Source: Nitrosomonas sp. (GTDB lineage Bacteria; Pseudomonadota; Gammaproteobacteria; Burkholderiales; Nitrosomonadaceae). Taken from it: 64,000 nucleotides of DNA. The notes beneath the pieces are model-generated. The model was given only the letters and a program-made list of their open reading frames with translations, searched no databases and was not told where the DNA came from. A program made the translations under genes and the position numbers. The DNA lies in the NCBI RefSeq assembly GCF_020852615.1, contig NZ_JADZAJ010000041.1:1-64000 (forward strand). Reading direction: 5' to 3'. Every line of letters begins with the position of its first letter. Within the stretch, counting starts at the first letter, position 1. This document shows positions 20,126 through 64,000 of the stretch, in pieces.

Positions 20126-20227
20126 GCGTCGTTTTTATGATTTAACTTTTAATATGTAATGAACAGAATAGATAAACTTATTTTTATTGTATTTATAATC
20201 AATCATTTATACATATATAGAAAATCC

Positions 20228-20256
20228 TTGACATAAAACTAAAAATGCAGTATTAA
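20228..20256 (+). promoter_or_regulatory. Sigma-70-type promoter for the small lipoprotein
   Basis: TTGACA at 20228-20233 and TATTAA at 20251-20256 are 17 bases apart in an AT-rich intergenic region. The -35 is a perfect match and the -10 matches four of six. Transcription would start near 20263 and lead into the lipoprotein at 20352. The gap is divergent, with sbcC on the other side. Confidence 0.55.
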
Positions 20257-20351
20257 ATAAATGTCTTTCTTAAAAAGAGGGGCAGCAGGTCAGGACTGTT
20301 GGAAGAACTATATTGTTGTTAGTGTACTTTTTCTTATAGGAGACTGGAAAA

Positions 20352-20510
20352 ATGAAAATGTTACGTGTACTTCTTGCCGCAATGGTTGCAGCTACCACGC
20401 TGGGTGGGTGTATTGATACTGATAAGCCTGCCAACTATCCGCCAAGCATGATGATGGAACGCGACAGCATGCCGGATAACCTGGATAAAGCCGAGCAAGG
20501 CAAAAAATGA
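20352..20510 (+). CDS. Small lipoprotein, unknown function
   Basis: A 52-residue protein: MKMLRVLLAAMVAATTLGGC is a lipoprotein signal with lipobox LGGC and Cys20 as the lipidated residue. A 32-residue polar tail follows, rich in Met, Asp and Lys (PPSMMMERDSMPDNLDKAEQ). A clear promoter lies upstream and an intrinsic terminator 30 bases downstream, so it is a single-gene transcript. Size resembles entericidin-like or Lpp-like small lipoproteins, but I cannot assign it. Confidence 0.75.
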   Translation: MKMLRVLLAAMVAATTLGGCIDTDKPANYPPSMMMERDSMPDNLDKAEQGKK

Positions 20511-52994: not shown

Positions 52995-53070
<76 letters not shown>

Positions 53071-53078
53071 AAATTCAG

Positions 53079-53106
53079 CGCCCAACTGTTCTCAGTTGGG
53101 CGTTTT
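53079..53106 (+). terminator. Terminator after tRNA-Phe
   Basis: CGCCCAACTG and CAGTTGGGCG form a perfect ten-base-pair stem with a TTCT loop, followed by TTTT. It ends the tRNA-Arg/tRNA-Phe transcript. Confidence 0.85.
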
Positions 53107-53364: not shown

Positions 53365-53595
53365 TCAACCCTTGGGCGGGAACGGATCGTCATCGTAGCT
53401 GTTGCGCTCACGGATCTGGCCGTTCCGCCCTTGGATGAGCATCTCGCTCTGCTGGTTGATGGCGATGTCCCGCGCACGGTCAATCGCCTGTTGCTGCGTG
53501 TCATGGATGGAGGTGAGACGGTCGTTGCCTTCTCCCCGCACACCCCACTGATCACCGCCGTTGATGGGTACGACCCATTGGTTCTTTCCGCTCAT
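53365..53595 (-). CDS. DUF2188 small protein
   Basis: A 76-residue protein beginning MSGKNQWVVPINGGDQWGVR. It has the DUF2188 pattern: a strand with W-V-P...W-V-x-G-E, then QQQAIDRARDIAINQQSEML, then IQGRNGQIRERNSYDDDPFP. These small proteins occur on mobile elements and in stress contexts; no activity is known. The start at 53595 has GGAGAG upstream. It is the last gene of the minus-strand accessory operon, 71 bases after the preceding gene. Confidence 0.8.
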   Translation of the reverse strand: MSGKNQWVVPINGGDQWGVRGEGNDRLTSIHDTQQQAIDRARDIAINQQSEMLIQGRNGQIRERNSYDDDPFPPKG

Positions 53596-53666
53596 TTCAA
53601 TCTCTCCTAAAAATGAAAAAGTCAGGCTCTTGAAGTCGGCGCGAGCCAGGCGCTTCGGTGCTGAAT

Positions 53667-54632
53667 TCATGTCATGACGTTCGCCCCCTTTCCAGTTGCC
53701 GAACACGGCATCGCATATAGTCCAGCGCGTTGCTGTGTGACGACGAGTGCCCCGTAGGCAGCCAGTCGAGCCTCGTGCTCCGGCTTGCCCTTGTCCTTCG
53801 ACTTGATCTTGAACAGGTCAATCGGCTTGTCGCTCTTCTGGCCAGCGCGCTGCATGATCCTTTCGCCGTCCACCTCGGCCCCCTTGAACGACCAGAGCGC
53901 TTCGAACACCTTGGCCTGACCTTGGGTGAATCGGATTGGTGTGGACTGCACATCCTGCAGCGTTGCCCACTTGAAGTCGGCCGAGAACGGCCCGTTCACT
54001 GGCGCGGCCGGATCGGCCACTGCTGGCACTGCAAACGGCACCGAGGGGATGAAGGTGATTGCGCCGCCATAGAACGTGAAACGTTCCTCCAGTGCCAGCC
54101 ATTCCACGCTGGAGCCGAAGGGCGATCCACGCGTCGTGCGCGGCCTGGGAGTGATGACCCGGATGTTGCTTCCCGCTACCCGAATACGATCCAGCAAGGT
54201 CGGCTCATGCAGCACTCTCGTCAGATCTCGGGCCAGCACGACCGGAGAGCGGCGGGCATTACCGAGCCGCCAAGCACCGTCGCCCAAGTCATCGATGTCG
54301 TCGCGGCTCTCGATGTCGAGCGCGAGGCGCATTTTCTGCCGCAGCCACTCTTCGTCCAGGGCCAACGCCGCACCGTCGCTTGCCTCGACAGGCACCTGGC
54401 CACACTCCGGGCACCGGCAGATCCGACCGCCCCGTCCATCGCCCCAGACCTGTGCCCGATGCTGCTGACAGTGGGGGCAGAGTACAAAAGACTGATCCAC
54501 CACTGTTGGCCTGACGGCTTTGCCGAGCACAGATAAAGCTGATACCTCGTGTGGCGAGAACGTGGCCCGCAGCACCGGCGTGCCGCCTGCGAACAGGCGG
54601 CAAACCAGGGCCCAGGCATCATGCGTAGTCAT
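53667..54632 (-). CDS. Unrecognised protein with zinc ribbon
   Basis: A 321-residue protein. Near residues 52-77 it has CPHC followed 22 residues later by CPEC (LCPHCQQHRAQVWGDGRGGR, then ICRCPECGQVPVE), a zinc ribbon. An alpha/beta region follows, with RRSPVVLARDLTRVLHEPTL and a C-terminal Lys-rich segment (FKIKSKDKGKPEHEARLAAY). I cannot name the family. ATG at 54632 overlaps or nearly abuts the end of the preceding gene, depending on that gene's frame. Codon use and GC are like the rest of the accessory segment and unlike the chromosome to the left. Confidence 0.7.
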   Translation of the reverse strand: MTTHDAWALVCRLFAGGTPVLRATFSPHEVSALSVLGKAVRPTVVDQSFVLCPHCQQHRAQVWGDGRGGRICRCPECGQVPVEASDGAALALDEEWLRQKMRLALDIESRDDIDDLGDGAWRLGNARRSPVVLARDLTRVLHEPTLLDRIRVAGSNIRVITPRPRTTRGSPFGSSVEWLALEERFTFYGGAITFIPSVPFAVPAVADPAAPVNGPFSADFKWATLQDVQSTPIRFTQGQAKVFEALWSFKGAEVDGERIMQRAGQKSDKPIDLFKIKSKDKGKPEHEARLAAYGALVVTQQRAGLYAMPCSATGKGANVMT

Positions 54633-55459
54633 TGGTCAGTCCTCGAAGGTGGATGAGGAACTGACTGGGTCGGTCTCCGGCGGCAACTCTTGGGCACTGA
54701 GGGTCTGGCCCTTCTGCAAGATGCCACCGCAACCAGGTAGCCTTCCAGCTGCGCCTGCATCTTGGCGTCGAACTTGTGCAGGTTCAGCCGTCCTTTGCTG
54801 GTCACTTCGATGGTGACCACCTTGGGGCGAGTCCTGCCCGGTTCGGGCGGGTAATAGAGATTGACCTGTGCCGCTGTCACCGCCCACTTACCCTCCAGCG
54901 GGCCAGGCAGCTTCTCCTTCAGCAGATCGTGCACCGAGCGTTGCTGGCTGGATTGCATCGCCGTGCATTCGATCTTCAACGCCGTGTCGGGGCTGAGCAG
55001 GGTGAGTGCCTTCAACTGCACCATCGAAAAACCGTCCTCAAAGACCTCCGGCACATCGAACCCGGTGCGCAGCATCGACAGATCCGGAGTCGGCGACTTG
55101 ATCTTGTGAGCGCTTGCTTTCACGCCCAGCACATGCTCCGCGAAGGCCTCGACCAACATCTGTTGGTACTTTGCGCCGCCGCGCACCAGCGTGCGCACCA
55201 CACCGGTGGACTTGGCGTACTCCAGCACCATGCGAATGTTGGGGTTGCCGACCCGGCGCTTCAGGGTCGCGCCCTCGAACTCCAGGCACAGCGTCGCCAT
55301 GCCCTTGACATGGACTGACAGCAGGAACACCTCCGGGCTGCGCTCGACTAAGTGCGCCACGCTGCCGTCTCCGCATTGCGGTTCGCGCTTGTAGAAGGCC
55401 GAGATGGCGTGACGCAACGCGGTCAGATTGGCATCCGAGCCGTTTGGTTGGCGCTTCAA
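54629..55459 (-). CDS. Unrecognised protein, possibly frameshifted at both ends
   Basis: An open frame of 276 residues with no domain I recognise; the core has FLLSVHVKGMATLCLEFEGA, YAKSTGVVRTLVRGG and VVTIEVTSKGRLNLHKFDAK. Two signs of frameshift are visible. At the 5' end the only in-frame start is TTG 55459 without a ribosome site, while AGGAG and ATG 55491 sit in another frame that stops exactly over that TTG. At the 3' end, after LEGYLV (about 54735), the frame turns Arg-rich, while the alternative frame reads GILQKGQTLSAQELPPETD and stops at 54636, three bases before the next ATG. Either sequencing errors or decay would explain this. Confidence 0.6.
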   Translation of the reverse strand: MKRQPNGSDANLTALRHAISAFYKREPQCGDGSVAHLVERSPEVFLLSVHVKGMATLCLEFEGATLKRRVGNPNIRMVLEYAKSTGVVRTLVRGGAKYQQMLVEAFAEHVLGVKASAHKIKSPTPDLSMLRTGFDVPEVFEDGFSMVQLKALTLLSPDTALKIECTAMQSSQQRSVHDLLKEKLPGPLEGKWAVTAAQVNLYYPPEPGRTRPKVVTIEVTSKGRLNLHKFDAKMQAQLEGYLVAVASCRRARPSVPKSCRRRPTQSVPHPPSRTDQ

Positions 55460-55498
55460 GCCAAGATCGTATTGCTGCGTCTGCTGCCCATGCTGCTC

Positions 55499-55703
55499 CT
55501 AAAAGCTGAAGTCATAGGCGCGTTCGAACAGCGCCGGGTGGTGGACGTAGAGCCAGAAGGAACGGTGGATGTCGCTTGCACACAGCGCCAAACCCGCCAG
55601 CGCAGCACCATCGGCCACGATCGCGTCCCGGCGGCCCGCGTTTGATCGCATGTACGCGCTCGCCATCGAGCGCTTGATGCAGGATGGCCTTGCGCTCGAT
55701 ACG
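55499..55703 (-). pseudogene. Small frameshifted ORF between the unknown genes
   Basis: Two frames join into one protein-like sequence: RIERKAILHQALDGERVHAI then KRGPPGRD in one frame, continuing as AIVADGAALAGLALCASDIH and RSFWLYVHHPALFERAYDFS in another, with stop at 55499. The break lies in a GC-only stretch near 55630. No proper start codon is seen. An intact ATG start exists only at 55666 in the second frame and gives 55 residues. A short gene with one indel, or a sequencing error, is likely. The stop TAG overlaps the AGGAG of the next gene. Confidence 0.5.
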
Positions 55704-55720
55704 CTACCCGTTGGCGAAAC

Positions 55721-56830
55721 TCAGTGCCCTTGAGGTTCGCCTGTGGAGGCTGTCTTCGCGTTCGACGCACTGGCTTGCTTGCAACTCTGTGCAAGCTGCC
55801 CTGCAAATTCGGCCAACTGTTCCCGAATTCGCCGACCCCGCGCTTCCTCGCCCGCAAACGGCTTGCTGAACATCAGCCCAACCATTTCCTTGATGCGCTC
55901 CTCTCGTTGCGGATCACCCCCTTCGACTCCGGCATGAACGTGATAGGCGTGCCGCTGGTTCAAGGTTTCTGCCAGATCCCGATCCAGGGTCTGGCCTGCC
56001 AGAACGTAGCCAAGTTTATGCTGGTACTGTCGACTGATATCGCAGATCTGTAGCAGATCGATGTCGCCCAGGCCCTTGAGCAGGCCGTTGCGGCCAAAGG
56101 TATTGAGATCGGCCAGGGTCTCCGAGAGCTTGCCGCTGCCGATGGGTGCCGGGCCGTGGCCCTGGCATTGTTCGATGATGTGCTGCTCGATGCGCGCCGA
56201 GAGCACGAAGCGCACGTACCACGGATCAAAGTAGTGCAGGGGTAATTTCTCTGGTAATGCTCGCCAGGCTTCGCTCATGGGGATTTTGACGCCCATCGGT
56301 GCGCGCAGATCAATGCGCCAGTTTGCCGTGTCAATCTCGTCGACAAATTGCGTCAAGAAGACCTCGTCGGCAACGATGGCCTGCAGGCATTCGAATAGGT
56401 GGGCAGGCGTCTCGAAGCCCAGTGATGCGATACGCAACCCGGTGGAACCCAACAACTGCTGCAACTCCGCGAGGGCATGTTCGATCTCGACGACCGACGC
56501 GGGCGGGCGCCGCCCGGTATGTTCAAAGATGGCCATCGGTGAGAGCGCCAGATGGCTTTCGCGGTCGCTCCAGTCGCGCACGAAGGCGCAGAAGATCTTG
56601 AAGGCGAGCGCATCGACGGCCCGTTTGGTGTTCGTCTGCCGATGCTTGAAGGCCTGGATCAGGCTGTTGTCGAGCACGAGGTAGATGGGCCCCTGCAATT
56701 CGTAGGCCGAGGCATAGCGCGAGCCGAACCACAAGGTCAGATCGAAGCAGCGCAGAATCGCACCATCGTCGAGTCTTTGCAAAGCGGTGCGCAGCCGGTC
56801 GGCCAGCCGCTGATGTTTCTTGTTCGTCAT
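55721..56830 (-). CDS. Unrecognised 369-residue protein of the accessory operon
   Basis: A soluble protein with no family I can name. The N-terminal half has DLTLWFGSRYASAYELQGPI, then IYLVLDNSLIQAF and AFKIFCAFVRDWSDRESHLA. The middle has LHYFDPWYVRFVLSARIEQH and the C-terminal part is helical (REERIKEMVGLMFSKPF). LVLDNSLIQAF is faintly like the first strand of PIN-type nucleases, but the acidic set is not clear. Its ATG overlaps the stop of the PaaK-like gene by four bases, so it belongs to the same operon as the ligase and the secretion genes. Confidence 0.7.
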   Translation of the reverse strand: MTNKKHQRLADRLRTALQRLDDGAILRCFDLTLWFGSRYASAYELQGPIYLVLDNSLIQAFKHRQTNTKRAVDALAFKIFCAFVRDWSDRESHLALSPMAIFEHTGRRPPASVVEIEHALAELQQLLGSTGLRIASLGFETPAHLFECLQAIVADEVFLTQFVDEIDTANWRIDLRAPMGVKIPMSEAWRALPEKLPLHYFDPWYVRFVLSARIEQHIIEQCQGHGPAPIGSGKLSETLADLNTFGRNGLLKGLGDIDLLQICDISRQYQHKLGYVLAGQTLDRDLAETLNQRHAYHVHAGVEGGDPQREERIKEMVGLMFSKPFAGEEARGRRIREQLAEFAGQLAQSCKQASASNAKTASTGEPQGH

Positions 56831-58197
56831 GCTTTTTCCCCACTGTCTGGGATCGAGGAAGTGAATTCCTCGAACTTGCCGCTGGCCAACAAGGGCAAGG
56901 GGATCTCACGAAGCTCCCAAGCCCAGCGGTAGGCATGGCCCAACATCTGATCCAGTGTTGCCTGCAATTTCTGCAGTTGTTCGGAGCTTGGCGCGGGTGC
57001 GCACACCAATCGTGCCGTGATGGCGTCCGCAGCGGTCTGCTCGAACTGGTACTGGCGTATTTGCGGGATGGCGTTCAGCATTCGCTTGGTGTCTAATACC
57101 GGCCAGAACAGCTTGCCCTCGGGGTTCATGGCCATGTTGCGGGTGCGTCCCATGACCCGGCGCAGGGTAGGCAACCCCCGGCCGCAGGAACAGGCGGGGC
57201 CGACCTCGGCCCAGTCATGTAGCGCATAGCGAATCAACGGCATGGCGAAGTTGTGCAGATCGGTCACCACCACTTGGCCGATTTCGCCTTCCCGGCAGGG
57301 TTGCCCCATCTTATTGAGCATCTCGACCAGTAAATGTTCGGATTGCACGTGCAACAGGCCGCTGTCCGGACATTGCAGGGCGATAACGCCGATCTCTTGG
57401 GCGCTGTAGAGATCGGTCAGTGGCATGCCCAAGACTTGCTGGCACTGTTCGCGCAGTGCCGGGGTGACCGCGCCGCTGATGGTGCGCACCTCGCGCAGGC
57501 GCGGCAGGGTGACGGCCTCATGGCGCATGTGCGTCAGCAAAGCATCCAGGTTGGCCGGATAGGTGAGCAGGATGTCGGGATTGACGCCCTGCAACCAGCG
57601 TGACTGGACTTGCACATCGGTCGAAATCGGCAAGTGCCAGGCCGGGCCGCTGCGTAAGATGCCGCCCCATCGCTCGGGCTTGGTGGAATCCACCGGCTGC
57701 GGAAACTGGCGGATGATGGCCATCGTGGCAGAGAGATCACGCCGATGCCAGAGATGGTCGCGCAGCGTGGCCGCTTGCCAGAAGAGCTGGGTGAGCGCCG
57801 TGCGCCGCACCGTCACGGGTTCAGCCGTCGACCCGCCTGTCGCAATGTCGAATGTCTTGCCGTGGGCGCGCGGATAGGTGGCAGCCCGTATGGCATCGGC
57901 GTGCGTTTGCAGATCTGTGCGGGTCAGCAGCGGAATGTCGTGCCAATTGGCCAGACCGTTGGGAAGCCGCTCGCGATAGAAGGCGCAGTGGCGACGCGCA
58001 TGGTCGAGCAGCACACCCAGTTGTCGATTCTGTTGCTTGCGCAAGGCCCCAGCCGACAACCACTGTGTGCTTTCCATCTGGAACAGCAAGGCCAGCACGG
58101 CGGCATCGCGCGCACCGACCACCGCTGGCCAGTGGACGCTCGGCACCTGGCTGGGCAGCGCGCCGGTCAGCGTCGACTGCCGTGGGACATCATTCAT
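56827..58197 (-). CDS. PaaK/CapK-like adenylate-forming enzyme
   Basis: A 456-residue member of the phenylacetate-CoA ligase/CapK branch of ANL enzymes. It has RRHCAFYRERLP near the N-terminus and the phosphate loop FDIATGGSTAEPVTVRR at about 116-132. YSAQEIGVIALQCP binds the adenylate, and VVTDLHNFAMPLIRYALHDW is the central block. Next is CSCGRGLPTLRRVMGRTRNM with GR-D/N-like hinge residues. Such enzymes activate an acid as an acyl-AMP or thioester; CapK relatives work in surface-polymer or natural-product pathways. The substrate is unknown. It overlaps the HlyD gene and the next gene by four bases each. Confidence 0.85.
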   Translation of the reverse strand: MNDVPRQSTLTGALPSQVPSVHWPAVVGARDAAVLALLFQMESTQWLSAGALRKQQNRQLGVLLDHARRHCAFYRERLPNGLANWHDIPLLTRTDLQTHADAIRAATYPRAHGKTFDIATGGSTAEPVTVRRTALTQLFWQAATLRDHLWHRRDLSATMAIIRQFPQPVDSTKPERWGGILRSGPAWHLPISTDVQVQSRWLQGVNPDILLTYPANLDALLTHMRHEAVTLPRLREVRTISGAVTPALREQCQQVLGMPLTDLYSAQEIGVIALQCPDSGLLHVQSEHLLVEMLNKMGQPCREGEIGQVVVTDLHNFAMPLIRYALHDWAEVGPACSCGRGLPTLRRVMGRTRNMAMNPEGKLFWPVLDTKRMLNAIPQIRQYQFEQTAADAITARLVCAPAPSSEQLQKLQATLDQMLGHAYRWAWELREIPLPLLASGKFEEFTSSIPDSGEKA

Positions 58198-59561
58198 CGC
58201 TCCCGGCCAGCCTCGTGCCAGGCCTTTTTCACGGGCGACAGCAGATATTCCGCCACCGTGCGGTCGCCCAGCAGGATTTCCGCCGTGGTCTGCATGCCAA
58301 CCGACAGCGGGTATTTCACACCATCCGTTTCCAGCGCGCTGGCATCGAGCGTCACCAGCGCCTTGTAGCGCAGCGGACGTTGCCCGGCGCCTTGCAGGCC
58401 CTTGTCGCGGGCTTCTTCTTCGCTCTGGGCATCGGCGCTCACGTGTTCGACGGTGCCTTGTCCCATGCCGTATTTCTGGAAGGTGTAGGCGGCAAACTTG
58501 AGCTTGACCGGCTGACCCGGTCGCACGAAGCCGATGTCCTCGTTCGACACCCAGACCTCGGCCTTGAGCTTTTCTTCTTGGGGCACGAGGCTGGCCAGCA
58601 CGGTACCAGATTGCACCACGGTGCCGGAGGTGTGCGTGGCTAGATCCTTGATCACGCCGTCCTGCGGAGCTTTCAATTCCAGGAGTTCGCGCCGGTGTTG
58701 CTGCTTCTCCTGTTCCCTGGACAGTTTGTCGAGCTGCGCTTGGGCCTCATTGCGCTCGGCGTGCAACTGCCGCAGATAATCGGCCTTGATCTGCTTCAAC
58801 TTCTTCTGCGACTGGTCGATGCTGGCCTGGGCAGAGGCGATCAGGTGGCCTTGTGTGGCCAGCTCCTGCTCCTTCTCGATGCGCTCGCGGCGTTTGTCCG
58901 AACCCATCAAGCCACCGGCGAAGCCCTCCTTGACCAGTTTCTCGTATGCCTTGTCCTGCTCGCGGTAGTGGGGCAACACGGCTTCCAGGCGTGTCTTCTG
59001 CTGGCGAGCTGCGGCCAGTTCCTGTTGCGCCTTGACCAAACGGCTGTGTTCCTCGGCGAGCGCTGCTGCCAGAGCATCGCGGTTGGCCTGGTACTGAGCG
59101 GCGGTTTCTCGCAGAAGTGCTGAGGGAGCCTGAATGTCCGGCTGAAAGGGTATGCCGCCAAGCTCGGCGTCGATGCGGGCCAGCTGAAGGCGTTTGCGGA
59201 CGTATTCGGTGGTGATGGCGTCCAGATCGGTGTTGGTGATCAGCGCATCCATGCGCATCAGGGTCTGTCCGGCGCGCACGGTTTCGCCCTCGCGCACCAG
59301 GATTTCCTTGACGATACCCGCTTCCGAGGGCTGCACGATCTTGAGGTAGCTGGCCGGTACCAGCTTGCCGTCGGCCATCGCCACGATATCCAACCGTCCC
59401 AGCAGCGCCCAAACGATGAGAAAGGCGACCAGTGCTAGGATGGCCCACAGCACCCGCCGCCCCTGCGGGTGCGGCGCGCTGTGCTGCAAACGAATCAGCG
59501 GCGGATGGAAATCCTGATGATCGCTGTGGGCGTGTTGGATGAGGGACTTCAATGAAGGCAT
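58194..59561 (-). CDS. HlyD-family type I secretion adaptor
   Basis: A 455-residue membrane-fusion protein. It has one N-terminal transmembrane helix (VLWAILALVAFLIVWALLG), a lipoyl half (IVQPSEAGIVKEILVREGET), and a long alpha-hairpin coiled coil rich in Gln, Lys and Glu at about 150-290. The second lipoyl half (ELKAPQDGVIKDLATHTSGT) and beta-barrel (EVWVSNEDIGFVRPGQPVKL) follow. It links an inner-membrane ABC exporter to TolC. The ABC ATPase is not in the window and may lie to the right of the RTX gene. It overlaps the glycosyltransferase end by 13 bases. Confidence 0.92.
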   Translation of the reverse strand: MPSLKSLIQHAHSDHQDFHPPLIRLQHSAPHPQGRRVLWAILALVAFLIVWALLGRLDIVAMADGKLVPASYLKIVQPSEAGIVKEILVREGETVRAGQTLMRMDALITNTDLDAITTEYVRKRLQLARIDAELGGIPFQPDIQAPSALLRETAAQYQANRDALAAALAEEHSRLVKAQQELAAARQQKTRLEAVLPHYREQDKAYEKLVKEGFAGGLMGSDKRRERIEKEQELATQGHLIASAQASIDQSQKKLKQIKADYLRQLHAERNEAQAQLDKLSREQEKQQHRRELLELKAPQDGVIKDLATHTSGTVVQSGTVLASLVPQEEKLKAEVWVSNEDIGFVRPGQPVKLKFAAYTFQKYGMGQGTVEHVSADAQSEEEARDKGLQGAGQRPLRYKALVTLDASALETDGVKYPLSVGMQTTAEILLGDRTVAEYLLSPVKKAWHEAGRER

Positions 59562-60805
59562 GCCGGGGGGCTCTCTTGGGGTTCTTGGGTCTTCCAGGTG
59601 CTGTCAGTGTTCCAGCCATCGAGAAACGTGCGTTCGATGAGGAACAGGCTTTGTTCGATGGTCTGGCTGGGCGAGTAATCGGCGTGGCGACTCCGGAACG
59701 AACGGGCAGCCTGCCGATACGCGGGGTTGCCGAGCAGTTCCTGCAGTGACGCGGTGACGCTGGCCGCATCGATCCGGCCACCGAGCAATTTGCCTGCCCC
59801 CAGAGCCTCCACCCGATGGGCAAAAAGCGCCTGCTCGACATGCCGGGGCCGCATCGCCAAGGGCACACCAGCCAGCAAGGCCTGAGTCGTGAAGCCGCTG
59901 TTGCCATAGCTGACGGCCAACTGTGCATCAGGCAGCAGCGAGGGCAGATCGACCGGTGCCAGCGCAATGCGCAAACACCGCGTGGCGCAACGCTTCGCCA
60001 TCTCGGGCTTCATGCCGGGCGCGATGCACAGCACCTCGGCATCCAGCCGGGCGAGCGCCTGCATGATCGATTCGAAGCCCGGTACGGCGGGTCGCAGGTA
60101 GGCCAGCACGCGTGAGCTTTCCTTGCTTTGCCAGCCAACACGCAAGGCTTGGGGCACCGAGACGATGGGCCCGACATAGCGCCCATCCGGACGCGCTCCG
60201 TAGTGGTCAAGCTCGCCAAAGGTGTCCAGGATGTCGTGCGCGCCAAACAAGTCGCGCACACGCACCGTCTTGGTGTGGCCCAACGCCTTCTGCGCAGAGT
60301 CCAGTACATGGTCAAGCCTGGTCTCAGCCGTGGTGAGCGCCTGATCGGCTACCGCATCCCAAGGCCGAATCGAGGGCCAGGGGGACACGGAGGGTGGAAT
60401 TGCAAAGCCATTGCCGATGGACAGATACGGGATTTCGGCGAGCCGTGCCGCCAGCAAGGCCGTCGGCGCATGGTCGGCGACCAGCACATCCGGGCGTACC
60501 AACGAAAACACCCCCTGCCAGGCGTTCAGCCGAGCAGCCACATCCCGCGCATCCGCAAACCCGCTGACGTGTAGTACGTCGGCATAGTTCACCGGTGGGC
60601 GGCTGCCTGTACCCGCCTGCGGGGTCAGCGGCGCGGGCAACACGGTGATGCCGGGCGCAAGCCGCTGTCCGACCGGTAGCCGAACGTCCTTGAGCGCCAG
60701 TGTCGCCTCGTGCCCACGCGCCACGAGCCCTTCGGCCAACCGCAGGCACTGGGCGAGGTGCCCGAAGGCCTCACCCAGTGCCCACACGATCAGGACGCGC
60801 GCCAT
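59549..60805 (-). CDS. MGT/UGT-like glycosyltransferase
   Basis: A 418-residue GT-B glycosyltransferase of the GT1/MGT type. The N-terminal domain opens ARVLIVWALGEAFGHLAQCL, with the Gly-His acceptor-side loop. VADHAPTALLAARLAEIPYL closes the first domain. The nucleotide-sugar domain has YLRPAVPGFESIMQALA and the donor motif AVSYGNSGFTTQALLAGVPL, a variant of the HGGxGT signature with Asn replacing the His/Gly pair. ATG 60805 (MARVLIVW) is the natural start; a longer in-frame opening runs into the RTX gene. It lies 16 bases after that gene and overlaps hlyD. Confidence 0.85.
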   Translation of the reverse strand: MARVLIVWALGEAFGHLAQCLRLAEGLVARGHEATLALKDVRLPVGQRLAPGITVLPAPLTPQAGTGSRPPVNYADVLHVSGFADARDVAARLNAWQGVFSLVRPDVLVADHAPTALLAARLAEIPYLSIGNGFAIPPSVSPWPSIRPWDAVADQALTTAETRLDHVLDSAQKALGHTKTVRVRDLFGAHDILDTFGELDHYGARPDGRYVGPIVSVPQALRVGWQSKESSRVLAYLRPAVPGFESIMQALARLDAEVLCIAPGMKPEMAKRCATRCLRIALAPVDLPSLLPDAQLAVSYGNSGFTTQALLAGVPLAMRPRHVEQALFAHRVEALGAGKLLGGRIDAASVTASLQELLGNPAYRQAARSFRSRHADYSPSQTIEQSLFLIERTFLDGWNTDSTWKTQEPQESPPACLH

Positions 60806-60821
60806 CGGCAGGGGTGACGGC

Positions 60822-63800
60822 TTACCATGACAGCTTGCCCACCCCTTCTTTGATGCCGCTAAAGCCCTTGAGCTGGGTGCCCGTATCGCAGGCGGCCAGC
60901 GACATGGCATCGACGCCGCCGCGTGCGCCGTGGGCACCGCCCTGCATCCAGCCAGCCAATCCGGAGAGATCGGCCCCCTGGTTGGCGTGGCTCCACGCAG
61001 GCGCGCTCTGGCGTTCTGCATCGAGCCGGTTCAGAGCATGGGTCAATTCGGCCCAGTGGCGCTCCACATCGTGGTTGCCCTGGCCTTGACCCGCCTGCTC
61101 GGATGCCTGTTGTTGCTCGCCCCATTGCTCGAACCAGCGGCGATCCAGCGCAGGCAAGGCAGAATGGTGCGGCTGGTCGGACTTGTCGTCGCGCTTGAAG
61201 CCGTCCAGGAAACGCCCCAAGGGGTCATCATCACGGTCGCCGCCGTGTTTGCGATCCGGGTGTCCCGGCGAGGTGCCCGCACCGTCGTTGATGTCGCCAC
61301 TGTGTCCGGGGGGCGGCGCATCCGCGCCGTTGCCCACACCTTCGTTGCCGTGACTAGCGGTCGGTACCACCGTCTTGCTGCCAAAGCTCACCCTAAAGTC
61401 ATCCGAGGCGGTCGAGCACTCGCCATGGCCATCGCTGGCGGTGACACGCACATCGATGCTGCTCTTGGCATTGGCCGGGGCGGTGCCGCTGAAGATCTGC
61501 ATCGCAGCGTCGAACTTGAGCCAGCTCGGCAGTGGCTTGCCGTTGGACAAAGTGGCCGTGTAGCTCAGCGTGTCGTTGCGGTCGGCGTCACGGAAGCTGT
61601 CTGCGGGCATCTGCCACGAGAATGCCTTGCTCTTGGCCAGTTGAACATCGGAGAGGCAGCGCACCAGATCCGGCGTGTCGTTGGTGCCCTGTACGGTTAC
61701 CGTCAATGCACCGCTGCTGCGCTGTGTGCCGTCGCTGGCCAGGTAGTTGAAGGTTTCCGTGACCGTCTCGCCCGCGCTCAAGCCCTGCACCTTGGACGAG
61801 CAATCGTCGAGCACATAGGCGTAGGTGCCGTTGGACAACAGGGTCAGCACACCGTATTCGCCGCGCCGGATACCGGGGTTGGCTACTGAGAGGCGTTCAC
61901 CTTCCGGATCGCGGTCGTTGGCCAGCACATTGCCCCAGGTGAAGAGCTTGCGATCCTCGATCAGATTGGCCGTATCCGGCGTGGTGACCGGTGCCTGGTT
62001 GCCGCCGCCCGATTCGACCGCCAGGGTGAAGCTCTGGCTGGCCGCAGCACCCGCCAGATCGGTGGCGGTGACCCGCAGGGCATAGTTGCCTGCCGAGGCC
62101 GGGGTGCCGCTGAAGGTGCCGGTGGCCGTGTCGAAGGCGAGCCATGTGGGCAGCGCGCTGCCGTCGGACAAAGTGGCCGAGTAGGTGAGCGCATCGCCCA
62201 CGTCGACGTCACGGAAACTGTCTGTGGGTAGCGTGAAGCTGAAGGCGCTGTCTTCGAGGGCACGCAGGTCTGACAGGAGTGTGCCAACTTCGGGTGCGTC
62301 ATTGGTGTTTTGCACCGTGACGTGGAAGCTGTGCAGGCTCGATGCGCCCAGTGTGTCCATGCCTTGCACGATGACGTCGAACTCGCCTACGTCGTCGTTG
62401 TCCGGTGTGCCGAACAGGGTGCGCGTGGCGGTGTCGTACTGCAGCCAGTCTGGCAGCGTCGTGTAACCAGAGACAGTAACCCGAGTCAGGATGTCGTCGC
62501 CATCGGCGTCAATGAAGAGGTCGTCGGGTAGCACCAGACTGAAGGCTGCATCTTCGAGCACCACCTGATCGTCGATGGAATTGGCGACTTCCGGTGCGCG
62601 GTTCGTGAACTCGCGCAACGTGACGGCAGTGCCATCGGCAAACTCGAAGGTGTCGATTACCGTGCCGCCGTCCGCGCCAGCCGGGGCGTAGTTGCTCACC
62701 CGCACTACATCGCCATTGGCGCCGTAATGGATGAGCAAGTCGTCGCTGTCGACTTCCAGCTGCACGTCGTCGCGGACAATGCCTTCACCGAAGGTGAGCA
62801 CGTTGCCGATGCCCGCGTCGAGGTCATCCTCAATCACGTCTTCGCCATCGCCCAGGTTGACCACGTAGGCGTCACGCTGAGCACCGCCACGCAAGACATC
62901 GTTGCCCAATCCGCCAGTGAGCACATCTTCACCGTCGCCCGATTCCATGACGTCCTCGCCGTCGTAGCCGTAGAGTCGGTCACCGACGTTGGTGCCAGTG
63001 AGTGCATTGCCACCGCTGTCGCCCTCGACCACGAAAGTCCAGGACACCAGGGTGGCGTAATCCACCGCCGTGCCGTCGGCGAACTCGAAACGTTCGATGG
63101 CGTGGCTACCCAGCACGTTCTGCGGATCGAAGCCGGTCAGACGCACCATGTCGCCATCGTCGCCGTAGGAGATGAGCAGCACATGGCCGCCGTTGCCGTC
63201 AGTCTCGAAGCGCAGGTTGTTGCGCAACTCGTTCGAGTCGATGCCAGGACCGAAGCGCAGCACATTGCCGGCATCTTCCTCAGCCACATCATCGATGGTG
63301 ACGACGCCGTCGCCCAGTTTCACGACGTAGGTGTCGTTGCCACCTTCGCCAGCCAGCCAGTCGCCACCCGGTGTCGCTTCGATCAGGTCGTTGCCGTCGC
63401 CGCCCCAGACACGATCCGTGAGGGTGGTTCCCTTGAGGGAGTTACTTTCTTCCGTACCGACGATATCGAAACCGCGTGTGAGCAGTTCCTCGTAGCCGAT
63501 TTCATCGCCTTCCAGGCCAAAGCGGAAACGCTCCACGGCACGAGGCCCCAGCGGGTTCTGCGGATCGAAGCCCGAGAGACGCACGCGGTTGCCGGTGTTG
63601 TCGAGGTCAAGGATCAGGAAGCCTTCAGCGTCATAAGACAGGCGCACATCATCGAGGGTCGTACCCTCGGGCAGTACCAGCGTGTTGGGTGCATCACCGT
63701 TATCGCTGTCGATGAGAGTGTCGCTGCCTGCATCGGCGTCGATGAGGTAGAGATCACCGCCCGCGCCGCCGCTCATGGTGTCGTCCGCCTCGCGGCCCTC

Positions 63801-64000
63801 GATCCAGTCGGCCAGCGCCGTGCCGGTCAGCACGTCGTCGTTGGGCGTGCCGATGATGCGCACGCCACGCGCCAACAAATCTTCGAACGATAACGTCACG
63901 CCATACCAAGACAGGTTGATTTCCGAAACCGGGGTCTGCATGCCTTCTGCGCGCGGGTCGAAGCCTGCGAAGCGGACTACATCGCCCTCATCATTCAAGC
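60822..64000 (-). CDS. Large RTX/Ig-like secreted protein (5' end beyond window)
   Basis: The C-terminal ~1058 residues of a very large secreted protein. From the right edge there are four blocks of the haemolysin-associated type (GDVVRFAGFDP-like, then F-x-F-x-DG-x-x-x-x-Y/F) mixed with RTX nonapeptide-like repeats (GYDGEDVMESGDGEDVLTGG). Then come three Ig-like modules with LPDWLQYDTATRTLFGTP-type repeats and one VCBS-like module (NLIEDRKLFTWGNVLANDRD). A Gly/Asp/His-rich linker leads to the tail LKGFSGIKEGVGKLSW. This is a type I secretion substrate, exported with the HlyD adaptor and folded by calcium outside; an adhesin or S-layer-like role is inference. Confidence 0.85.
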   Translation of the reverse strand, partial: LNDEGDVVRFAGFDPRAEGMQTPVSEINLSWYGVTLSFEDLLARGVRIIGTPNDDVLTGTALADWIEGREADDTMSGGAGGDLYLIDADAGSDTLIDSDNGDAPNTLVLPEGTTLDDVRLSYDAEGFLILDLDNTGNRVRLSGFDPQNPLGPRAVERFRFGLEGDEIGYEELLTRGFDIVGTEESNSLKGTTLTDRVWGGDGNDLIEATPGGDWLAGEGGNDTYVVKLGDGVVTIDDVAEEDAGNVLRFGPGIDSNELRNNLRFETDGNGGHVLLISYGDDGDMVRLTGFDPQNVLGSHAIERFEFADGTAVDYATLVSWTFVVEGDSGGNALTGTNVGDRLYGYDGEDVMESGDGEDVLTGGLGNDVLRGGAQRDAYVVNLGDGEDVIEDDLDAGIGNVLTFGEGIVRDDVQLEVDSDDLLIHYGANGDVVRVSNYAPAGADGGTVIDTFEFADGTAVTLREFTNRAPEVANSIDDQVVLEDAAFSLVLPDDLFIDADGDDILTRVTVSGYTTLPDWLQYDTATRTLFGTPDNDDVGEFDVIVQGMDTLGASSLHSFHVTVQNTNDAPEVGTLLSDLRALEDSAFSFTLPTDSFRDVDVGDALTYSATLSDGSALPTWLAFDTATGTFSGTPASAGNYALRVTATDLAGAAASQSFTLAVESGGGNQAPVTTPDTANLIEDRKLFTWGNVLANDRDPEGERLSVANPGIRRGEYGVLTLLSNGTYAYVLDDCSSKVQGLSAGETVTETFNYLASDGTQRSSGALTVTVQGTNDTPDLVRCLSDVQLAKSKAFSWQMPADSFRDADRNDTLSYTATLSNGKPLPSWLKFDAAMQIFSGTAPANAKSSIDVRVTASDGHGECSTASDDFRVSFGSKTVVPTASHGNEGVGNGADAPPPGHSGDINDGAGTSPGHPDRKHGGDRDDDPLGRFLDGFKRDDKSDQPHHSALPALDRRWFEQWGEQQQASEQAGQGQGNHDVERHWAELTHALNRLDAERQSAPAWSHANQGADLSGLAGWMQGGAHGARGGVDAMSLAACDTGTQLKGFSGIKEGVGKLSW

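Follow-up and report, generated by a model that had tools for sequence, protein, structure and literature searches.

Why are a glycosyltransferase (GT) and a CapK-like adenylating enzyme encoded in one run with a giant RTX protein and a secretion adaptor? The question is raised by a row of minus-strand genes at positions 53365 to 64000 of the window, the 64,000-nucleotide stretch of Nitrosomonas sp. DNA analyzed here, which is the start of a contig of 68,347 bases (NZ_JADZAJ010000041.1, hereafter C41) in an assembly of 2.09 Mb and 42 contigs. From sequence comparisons, we consider it probable that the run forms the downstream half of an operon that was acquired and serves type I secretion of a giant RTX exoprotein of the FrpC type, that this exoprotein would clip itself and carry an exchangeable, probably antibacterial, N-terminal domain (N-domain), and that GT and CapK plausibly modify it.

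Recurrence of the operon and its exporter

The preliminary description of this DNA had left open that the gene order might be unique to this genome and had called for a search of unrelated genomes. Using CapK homologues gathered from 58 loci, we found the order RTX-GT-HlyD-CapK in five other genomes (one with a broken CapK and one with the RTX gene off the contig) and variants of it in three more, which refutes uniqueness to this genome. The order is complete in L004, L005, and L007, the first two of which also keep the 4-bp overlap between HlyD and CapK. The L006 contig begins inside the GT gene and reads GT-HlyD-CapK, and G105 carries RTX-GT-HlyD followed by a broken CapK. A single contig (L157) holds the end of an ABC exporter gene, a 191-residue open reading frame (ORF), a 3549-residue RTX protein, GT, HlyD, and CapK. 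G618, a class-level relative, has ABC, a 231-residue ORF, an RTX protein of 3577 residues, HlyD, and CapK, with OEP and LuxR genes adjoining and a 21-residue remnant of GT left before HlyD; its CapK ends in the same C-terminal residues as protein P0078 of Thermithiobacillus tepidarius. The fullest form in relatives is thus ABC, a small low-GC (guanine plus cytosine) gene, RTX, GT, HlyD, and CapK. Shorter or rearranged versions are RTX-CapK-HlyD with GT absent (L037), ABC-158 residues-RTX (3532 residues)-GT-HlyD on a single contig with no CapK in the 20 kb fetched (G270), one locus with ABC-213 residues-RTX-HlyD that lacks both enzymes (G088), and, as a distant case, RTX-TIGR03032-ABC-HlyD-CapK (L024). 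The identities of CapK, HlyD, and ABC proteins correlate moderately between genomes (r 0.53–0.74), as measured on 15 pairs that are not independent and with one ABC protein represented by a 158-residue fragment.

Extension to the right, proposed earlier as a way to reach the exporter and the start of the operon, ends inside the RTX gene, whose frame runs without a stop to the C41 terminus at 68347 and encodes at least 2507 residues. A suitable exporter lies elsewhere in the assembly. The best type I ABC exporter match in this genome (TIGR01846, 580 bits, under the cut-off of 725.55) is on contig C27, where it is encoded at the left end on the minus strand, as is the beginning of an RTX protein. 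The reading frame of this exporter continues into a small membrane-like protein, at the place where relatives have a separate gene. When aligned to the RTX protein of L157, the single-contig homologue from Rhodoferax, the C27 piece corresponds to residues 124–646 and the C41 piece to residues 643–3547, and no copy of the RTX N-terminal part other than that on C27 was found in the assembly. This alignment makes the two pieces a candidate pair that may belong to one gene. Close relatives of the C27 exporter are present in all five genomes with a close CapK (L004–L007 and L037; 68–91%, two being contig-end fragments) and in G618, G105, and G270; of the three genomes in which CapK is only distantly related, G088 has an exporter relative at 60% and the other two have relatives at only about 30%. 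The adaptor HlyD scores above the TIGR01843 cut-off, an ABC gene stands 5′ of RTX in L157, L155, L180, L238, and C27, and the OEP family, the TolC-type factor of such systems, is present above cut-off in this genome. Export of the predicted exoprotein by ABC-HlyD-OEP is well supported by these matches.

Evidence for acquisition comes from composition and from the distribution of CapK. At about position 53,100, directly past a tRNA-Phe gene, the GC content steps from 50% in the adjoining flank to 60–63% in the gene run. Besides this genome, only two of 80 relatives (48 of them from the same genus) have a CapK relative at an E-value of 1e-40, and both of these are lower scoring and from other genera. 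Because CapK relatives at this threshold are so rare among these genomes and absent from the 48 of the genus, the high-GC run looks like an acquired segment. We rejected a contig artefact as the sole explanation: the exporter segment of C27 (57–62% GC over the first 7 kb) likewise borders DNA of 48–52% GC, and the CapK cluster (two member sequences) represents 49 contigs with a longest of 178,730 bases. Misassembly at the tRNA is unlikely but conceivable. A second copy of the tRNA-Phe 3′ end, as expected of an attachment-site repeat, was not found in the assembly. A phage origin is not supported, as 39 stretches of viral contigs fitted a pattern and none was confirmed. On C27 (L071, 4749–12871), past the exporter, the acquired DNA seems by eye to stop at about 6.6–7 kb at a Fic-like gene, and the DNA of 48–52% GC beyond it appears to hold sugar-synthesis genes (NeuB-like and cytidylyltransferase-like).

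A self-processing module and an exchangeable N-terminal domain

The RTX piece on C27 matches the structures of the FrpC self-processing module (SPM) with E-values of 7e-48 (6sjw) and 2e-47 (6sjx). The module occupies residues 129–305 of the piece, and Asp128-Pro129 stands at the predicted cleavage site. Seven SPM copies were recovered from CapK-bearing genomes (the one on C27, two in the L005 genome, and one each in those of L006, L007, G618, and G105), six of which have Asp-Pro at this site and the remaining one Ser-Pro. Most RTX proteins of this operon type carry a predicted FrpC SPM. In FrpC, the available excerpts of one study report that the module binds Ca2+, that the Asp-Pro bond at its N-terminal end breaks, and that the freed aspartyl is joined to a lysine (PMC7078468); this chemistry is already in use as a ligation tool.

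The sequences preceding the module are replaced from one relative to another. None of the ten pairs among the first five N-domains compared is similar, and the 210 residues that follow them are 82–94% identical in six pairs or 47–48% identical in four. Nine small ORFs located between ABC and RTX show no pair with an E-value under 0.01, and eight of the nine encode hydrophobic segments. We extended the comparison by searching 399 genomes of the order, 51 of which have an SPM at an E-value of 1e-20. From 14 of these 51 we took 20 SPM regions, favoring complete genomes and tandem copies, a choice that inflates the frequency of tandem arrangements. The final comparison comprises 33 copies in 25 loci; it includes L248:2088, the second SPM of a protein already counted, and skips a partial match in L257. 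Among all 496 pairs, the SPMs are similar in 494 and the N-domains in 34. For the 31 pairs whose SPMs are at least 70% identical, N-domains are unrelated in 23 and related in eight, six of the latter lying inside the tandem locus L248. Even adjacent copies within one locus (L249, L148, and L247) have unrelated N-domains next to SPMs that are 97%, 94%, and 90% identical. The DNA encoding the N-domain has a lower GC content than that encoding the SPM in 28 of 32 copies (Wilcoxon, 4.4e-6). A same-strand ORF lies upstream of 29 of the 33 copies, and only three of 351 pairs of upstream ORFs are similar, one being the same ORF counted twice.

The N-domain on C27 has seven database relatives, one of which is identical. 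In three of the other six, one of them an RTX protein of Aeromonas veronii, it sits on a backbone more diverged than itself (82 versus 45%, 63 versus 42%, and, over 55 residues, 76 versus 47%); in the other three, domain and backbone are about equally conserved. Plasmid matches to the variable domain or to the small ORF on C27 yielded nothing informative. Eight ORFs located between ABC and RTX gave two sub-threshold Pfam matches only. A scan of 10 further N-domains found DUF6973 in four and a class 3 lipase match in one. DUF6973 (PF22322), which we take to be a suspected lipocone/Min-Wnt-like toxin domain, is the N-terminal domain on four SPM-RTX backbones (L238, L239, L247, and L256). Several SPM cassettes lie within a few kilobases of each other in L247, L248, and L249, some of them in short ORFs separate from a complete RTX gene, and these extra cassettes look like displaced effector copies.

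In sum, an exchangeable domain is found on a conserved backbone, and the neighboring small gene differs between loci. This combination is the hallmark of polymorphic effector/immunity systems, and the SPM-RTX proteins are likely to have such an effector/partner layout.

The CapK and GT enzymes

The CapK protein contains the motifs GGST (121–124), YSxQE (264–268), and GK (440–441), all invariant in 21 aligned sequences, which we take to be adenylation motifs, with GK presenting the C-terminal lysine. Its best PaaK-like PDB matches have E-values of 7e-21 and 2e-15. A true phenylacetate-CoA ligase is not supported, as TIGR02155 scores 42.9 bits and its cut-off is 646.3. The nearest solved relatives of GT are CalG1/CalG4, YjiC, and sterol glucosyltransferases, that is, glycosyltransferases of small molecules. 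Acylation of the HlyC type is likewise not supported, since no acyltransferase family was detected by Pfam (E 0.1) in the eight window proteins, which do not cover the stretch between C27 and C41.

Markers of exported proteins were sought up to 9 kb from CapK, namely RTX proteins, two-partner secretion exoproteins with FhaC, autotransporters, FecR, and Slam-like proteins. A marker at this distance is not proof of a shared operon, and many contigs end closer. The marker seeds were confirmed by Pfam, including Glyco_transf_41 in L029 and L044. A marker is near CapK in 14 of 35 loci of set A, which was drawn from the 58-locus collection, a figure biased by the fact that the seeds were taken from that set. 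In set B, it is found in 19 of 38 loci (36 genomes), or 16 of 34 after four loci equal to set A are dropped. Random regions from 15 of the same genomes gave 0 of 20 and distant CapK relatives from other taxa 0 of 23, so that the 16 of 34 differ from both controls by Fisher's test (p = 1.0e-4 and p = 3.8e-5, respectively). This enrichment links CapK to exported giants in general: members of the wider family also neighbor large proteins that leave by other types of secretion, and some of these loci include GT41 glycosyltransferases. The setting of the two enzymes thus plausibly fits modification of an exported protein.

Two other associations of CapK were recorded. A methyltransferase gene lies within 9 kb, often about 1.1 kb away, in 15 of 35 loci (A) and 8 of 38 (B) compared with 0 of 20 random regions; CapK is directly 3′ of it in L008 and L031, with a 4-bp overlap in L031. 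The CapK of this genome and the methyltransferase of L028 give weak matches to the NCBIfam entries DVU_1553 and DVU_1556, both under cut-off, and the methyltransferase-CapK pair may recur in other pathways. In L116, L125, L129, L134, L140, and L141, a Slam-like TPR barrel, a FecR-domain protein, CapK, and a GT41-type TPR glycosyltransferase recur together; L183 resembles this cassette by eye but lacks GT41.

A model for the operon and its alternatives

In the model that we favor, CapK would activate an acid and GT would transfer a sugar to modify the exoprotein in the cytoplasm before export; in another version of this step, the product of the two enzymes would be exported or displayed with the exoprotein. 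Both versions are held with less confidence than what follows. The protein would leave through ABC-HlyD-OEP, whereupon extracellular Ca2+ would fold the SPM, the Asp-Pro bond would be cut, and the N-domain would be freed, its reactive end bonding to lysines of nearby proteins as the FrpC literature suggests. From the pattern of exchange, the N-domain would be a toxic or otherwise harmful effector acting on neighbors, and the small upstream gene would shield the producer.

Several observations weigh against this model. The L037 RTX protein shows no SPM within its first 1500 residues, and Asp-Pro, present in 19 of the 33 SPM copies overall, is missing in 14. Pfam detected RTX-type repeats only, and no toxin family, in eight RTX N-terminal pieces including that of this genome. 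The number of copies with an upstream ORF is a figure without a chance control. GT1 enzymes mostly act on small molecules, and 21 of 35 and 18 of 34 CapK loci are without any exported-protein marker. Neither enzyme is needed in every version of the operon, because GT is lost in L037 and G618, CapK is broken in G105, and CapK is absent from the 20 kb of G270. Finally, the RTX pieces of this genome stand on two contigs without overlap. P0220, a database protein identical to the C27 piece, extends no further than 646 residues, and the final 22 residues of this piece fail to align to the homologue, so that C27 could carry a copy that is displaced or broken and not the beginning of the C41 gene.

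The alternatives differ in what they make of the N-domain and of the two enzymes. The exoprotein might be a surface adhesin and not a weapon, its SPM bonding the N-domain to partner surfaces and the variable domain with its upstream partner reflecting changing partners, in line with a proposal made for FrpC/FrpD. The Ig/cadherin-like domains in the C-terminal part of the RTX protein favor such a role. According to the excerpts available, FrpC is non-cytotoxic and of unknown function and has its N-domain bound at about 0.2 nM by FrpD of the same operon, whose function is likewise called unknown (PMC5233953), and deletion of the SPM weakened virulence in the case of ApxIVA, for which the authors propose adhesion (PMC7078468), a result that also tells against our model. 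However, whole-domain swaps accompanied by a new upstream gene, tandem copies, the low GC content of both domain and gene, and N-domains of the lipase and DUF6973 types suit polymorphic effectors better, and we regard an adhesin as unlikely.

It is somewhat doubtful, though worth entertaining, that GT and CapK together produce a glycosylated compound, acyl or aryl in nature (a surface glycolipid, for instance), which is displayed or exported alongside the RTX protein and never joined to it. The solved relatives of GT and the PaaK-like ligases related to CapK agree with a small molecule, as does the frequent methyltransferase near CapK; yet GT is set tightly between RTX and HlyD, and CapK repeatedly lies near exported giants, some accompanied by GT41. 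That both enzymes belong to another pathway and became neighbors by chance on the same acquired island we judge very improbable. The acquired, high-GC character of the run and the loss of each enzyme in some relatives speak for such an arrangement, but the recurrence of the order in several genomes already contradicts it, as do the conserved HlyD/CapK overlap and the correlated identities. As to how far the model for the exoprotein extends, we offer only tentatively the proposal that SPM-RTX proteins form a widespread class of polymorphic weapons: under extracellular calcium, the exchangeable N-terminal effector would be clipped off as a reactive anhydride and weld itself to a surface protein of a neighboring cell, the gene directly upstream would protect the producer, FrpD-FrpC would be one relic pair, and in a subset CapK and GT would tailor the exoprotein ahead of its export.

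Comparison with known systems

Among the open-licence papers listed for the RTX/GT/CapK combination and for type I polymorphic RTX systems, we found no named system with this gene set. FrpC/FrpD of Neisseria shares with it a type I-secreted RTX protein, the SPM, the Asp-Pro site, and an operon that includes a partner gene. However, N-domains of the Asp-Pro copies in CapK-bearing genomes measure 126–233 residues compared with 414 in FrpC and are exchanged between relatives; furthermore, hydrophobic segments occur in eight of nine upstream proteins, and GT and CapK are part of the operon. The available excerpts of the FrpC literature contain no cassette or immunity reading (PMC7078468, PMC5233953). 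Polymorphic toxins such as CdiA, Rhs proteins, and T6 or T7 effectors likewise combine a conserved delivery backbone, an exchangeable domain, a small low-GC neighbor, and extra cassettes, but here the predicted effector is N-terminal and would be exported by type I secretion. This layout has a precedent in print, as an excerpt describes N-terminal fusions of Min-Wnt domains to RTX-like repeats (PMC12419801). The Cdz bacteriocins of Caulobacter resemble the system in type I secretion, surface display, and a small membrane immunity protein; in contrast, CdzC and CdzD have just 86 and 84 residues and are not SPM-RTX giants, and the excerpt that describes them makes no mention of GT or CapK (PMC5380434).

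HlyA/HlyC is similar in its RTX protein, HlyB/HlyD export, and modifying enzyme in the operon, and differs in that CapK and GT take the place of an acyltransferase, a family missing from the eight window proteins scanned. Glycosylation of adhesins by HMW1C, a GT41 enzyme, is a case in which a dedicated glycosyltransferase is encoded beside a large exported protein. GT41 enzymes do occur near relatives of CapK, but the GT of the window is of the GT1 type and no GT41 was found among the same eight proteins.

The role of FrpC-type self-processing RTX proteins has so far been called unknown or adhesive, as far as the excerpts go (PMC7078468, PMC5233953). The cassette pattern would offer a specific role for them, namely to deliver effectors that are exchangeable and paired with protective genes of their own. 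The uncharacterized CapK-like family neighbors Slam-like/FecR genes as well as giants exported by three or more types of secretion (type I, two-partner, and autotransporter among them) and so points to a tailoring step not yet described.

Composition of the gene run

The preliminary description had listed about nine minus-strand genes joined by 4 to 16 bases. The strand and the location agree with our analysis (see the table below), the number is eight, and five of the seven junctions are tight: RTX to GT (+16 bp), GT to HlyD (−13), HlyD to CapK (−4), CapK to the 369-residue protein U369 (−4), and the 276-residue U276 to the zinc-ribbon candidate ZnR (−4). Those between U369 and U276 (+261 bp) and between ZnR and DUF2188 (+71 bp) are loose. 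A 133-residue ORF at 55456–55857 that overlaps U369 was left out of the count and of the searches. As for the individual genes, the RTX/Ig protein was recognized correctly (He_PIG, cadherin, HCBP, and RTX domains are found), as were HlyD (331.5 bits to TIGR01843), DUF2188, and the PaaK/CapK-like enzyme, which fits the family although its best NCBIfam match is under cut-off. The glycosyltransferase had been called MGT-like; it is of the GT1 type, with EryCIII-like_C above cut-off and MGT far under it. Zinc-ribbon matches to ZnR do exist, albeit weak ones, and U369, U276, and ZnR are without any Pfam or NCBIfam family above cut-off.

Features of the window, with coordinates in window positions
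Feature	Coordinates	Strand	Description
RTX exoprotein, C-terminal part	60822..64000	−	RTX/HCBP repeats, He_PIG and cadherin-like domains; tail common to relatives
GT	59549..60805	−	GT1-type (EryCIII/macrolide-GT-like) glycosyltransferase, 418 residues
HlyD	58194..59561	−	Type I secretion periplasmic adaptor, 455 residues
CapK	56827..58197	−	PaaK/CapK-like adenylating enzyme, 456 residues
U369	55721..56830	−	369 residues, possible PIN-like fold
U276	54629..55459	−	276-residue ORF, possibly 3′ part of a longer gene
ZnR	53667..54632	−	321 residues, weak zinc-ribbon matches under cut-off
DUF2188	53365..53595	−	PF09954
tRNA-Phe	52995..53070	+	Located where the GC content steps up; probably borders the acquired segment

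The genes downstream of CapK are not supported as members of a conserved system, for beside the operon just remnants of U369 recur. These are N-terminal remnants after the operon in L007 and L037. Five pairs of CapK and U369 homologues with equal-sized longest contigs (13046, 10185, 12551, 4668, and 2641) hint at a possible linkage of the two genes. A Foldseek search with U369 gave nothing informative. Two plasmid relatives of U369 (L158 and L159) lie near integrase genes, as seen for a split relative on a plasmid of Pseudomonas koreensis. For U276, ZnR, and DUF2188, no match was obtained in the 201 loci searched, and these three more loosely joined genes look like island cargo. U276 covers only positions 191–390 of a phage family of 416 positions and by eye has an in-frame stop upstream, which makes it a probable remnant of a gene. 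The DUF2188 gene fits the PADLOC candidate defence family PDC-S16 across the full profile. Apart from tRNAs, the sole RNA family match in the window is the Nitrosomonas small RNA psRNA6 (20169–20499, minus strand, 104 bits).

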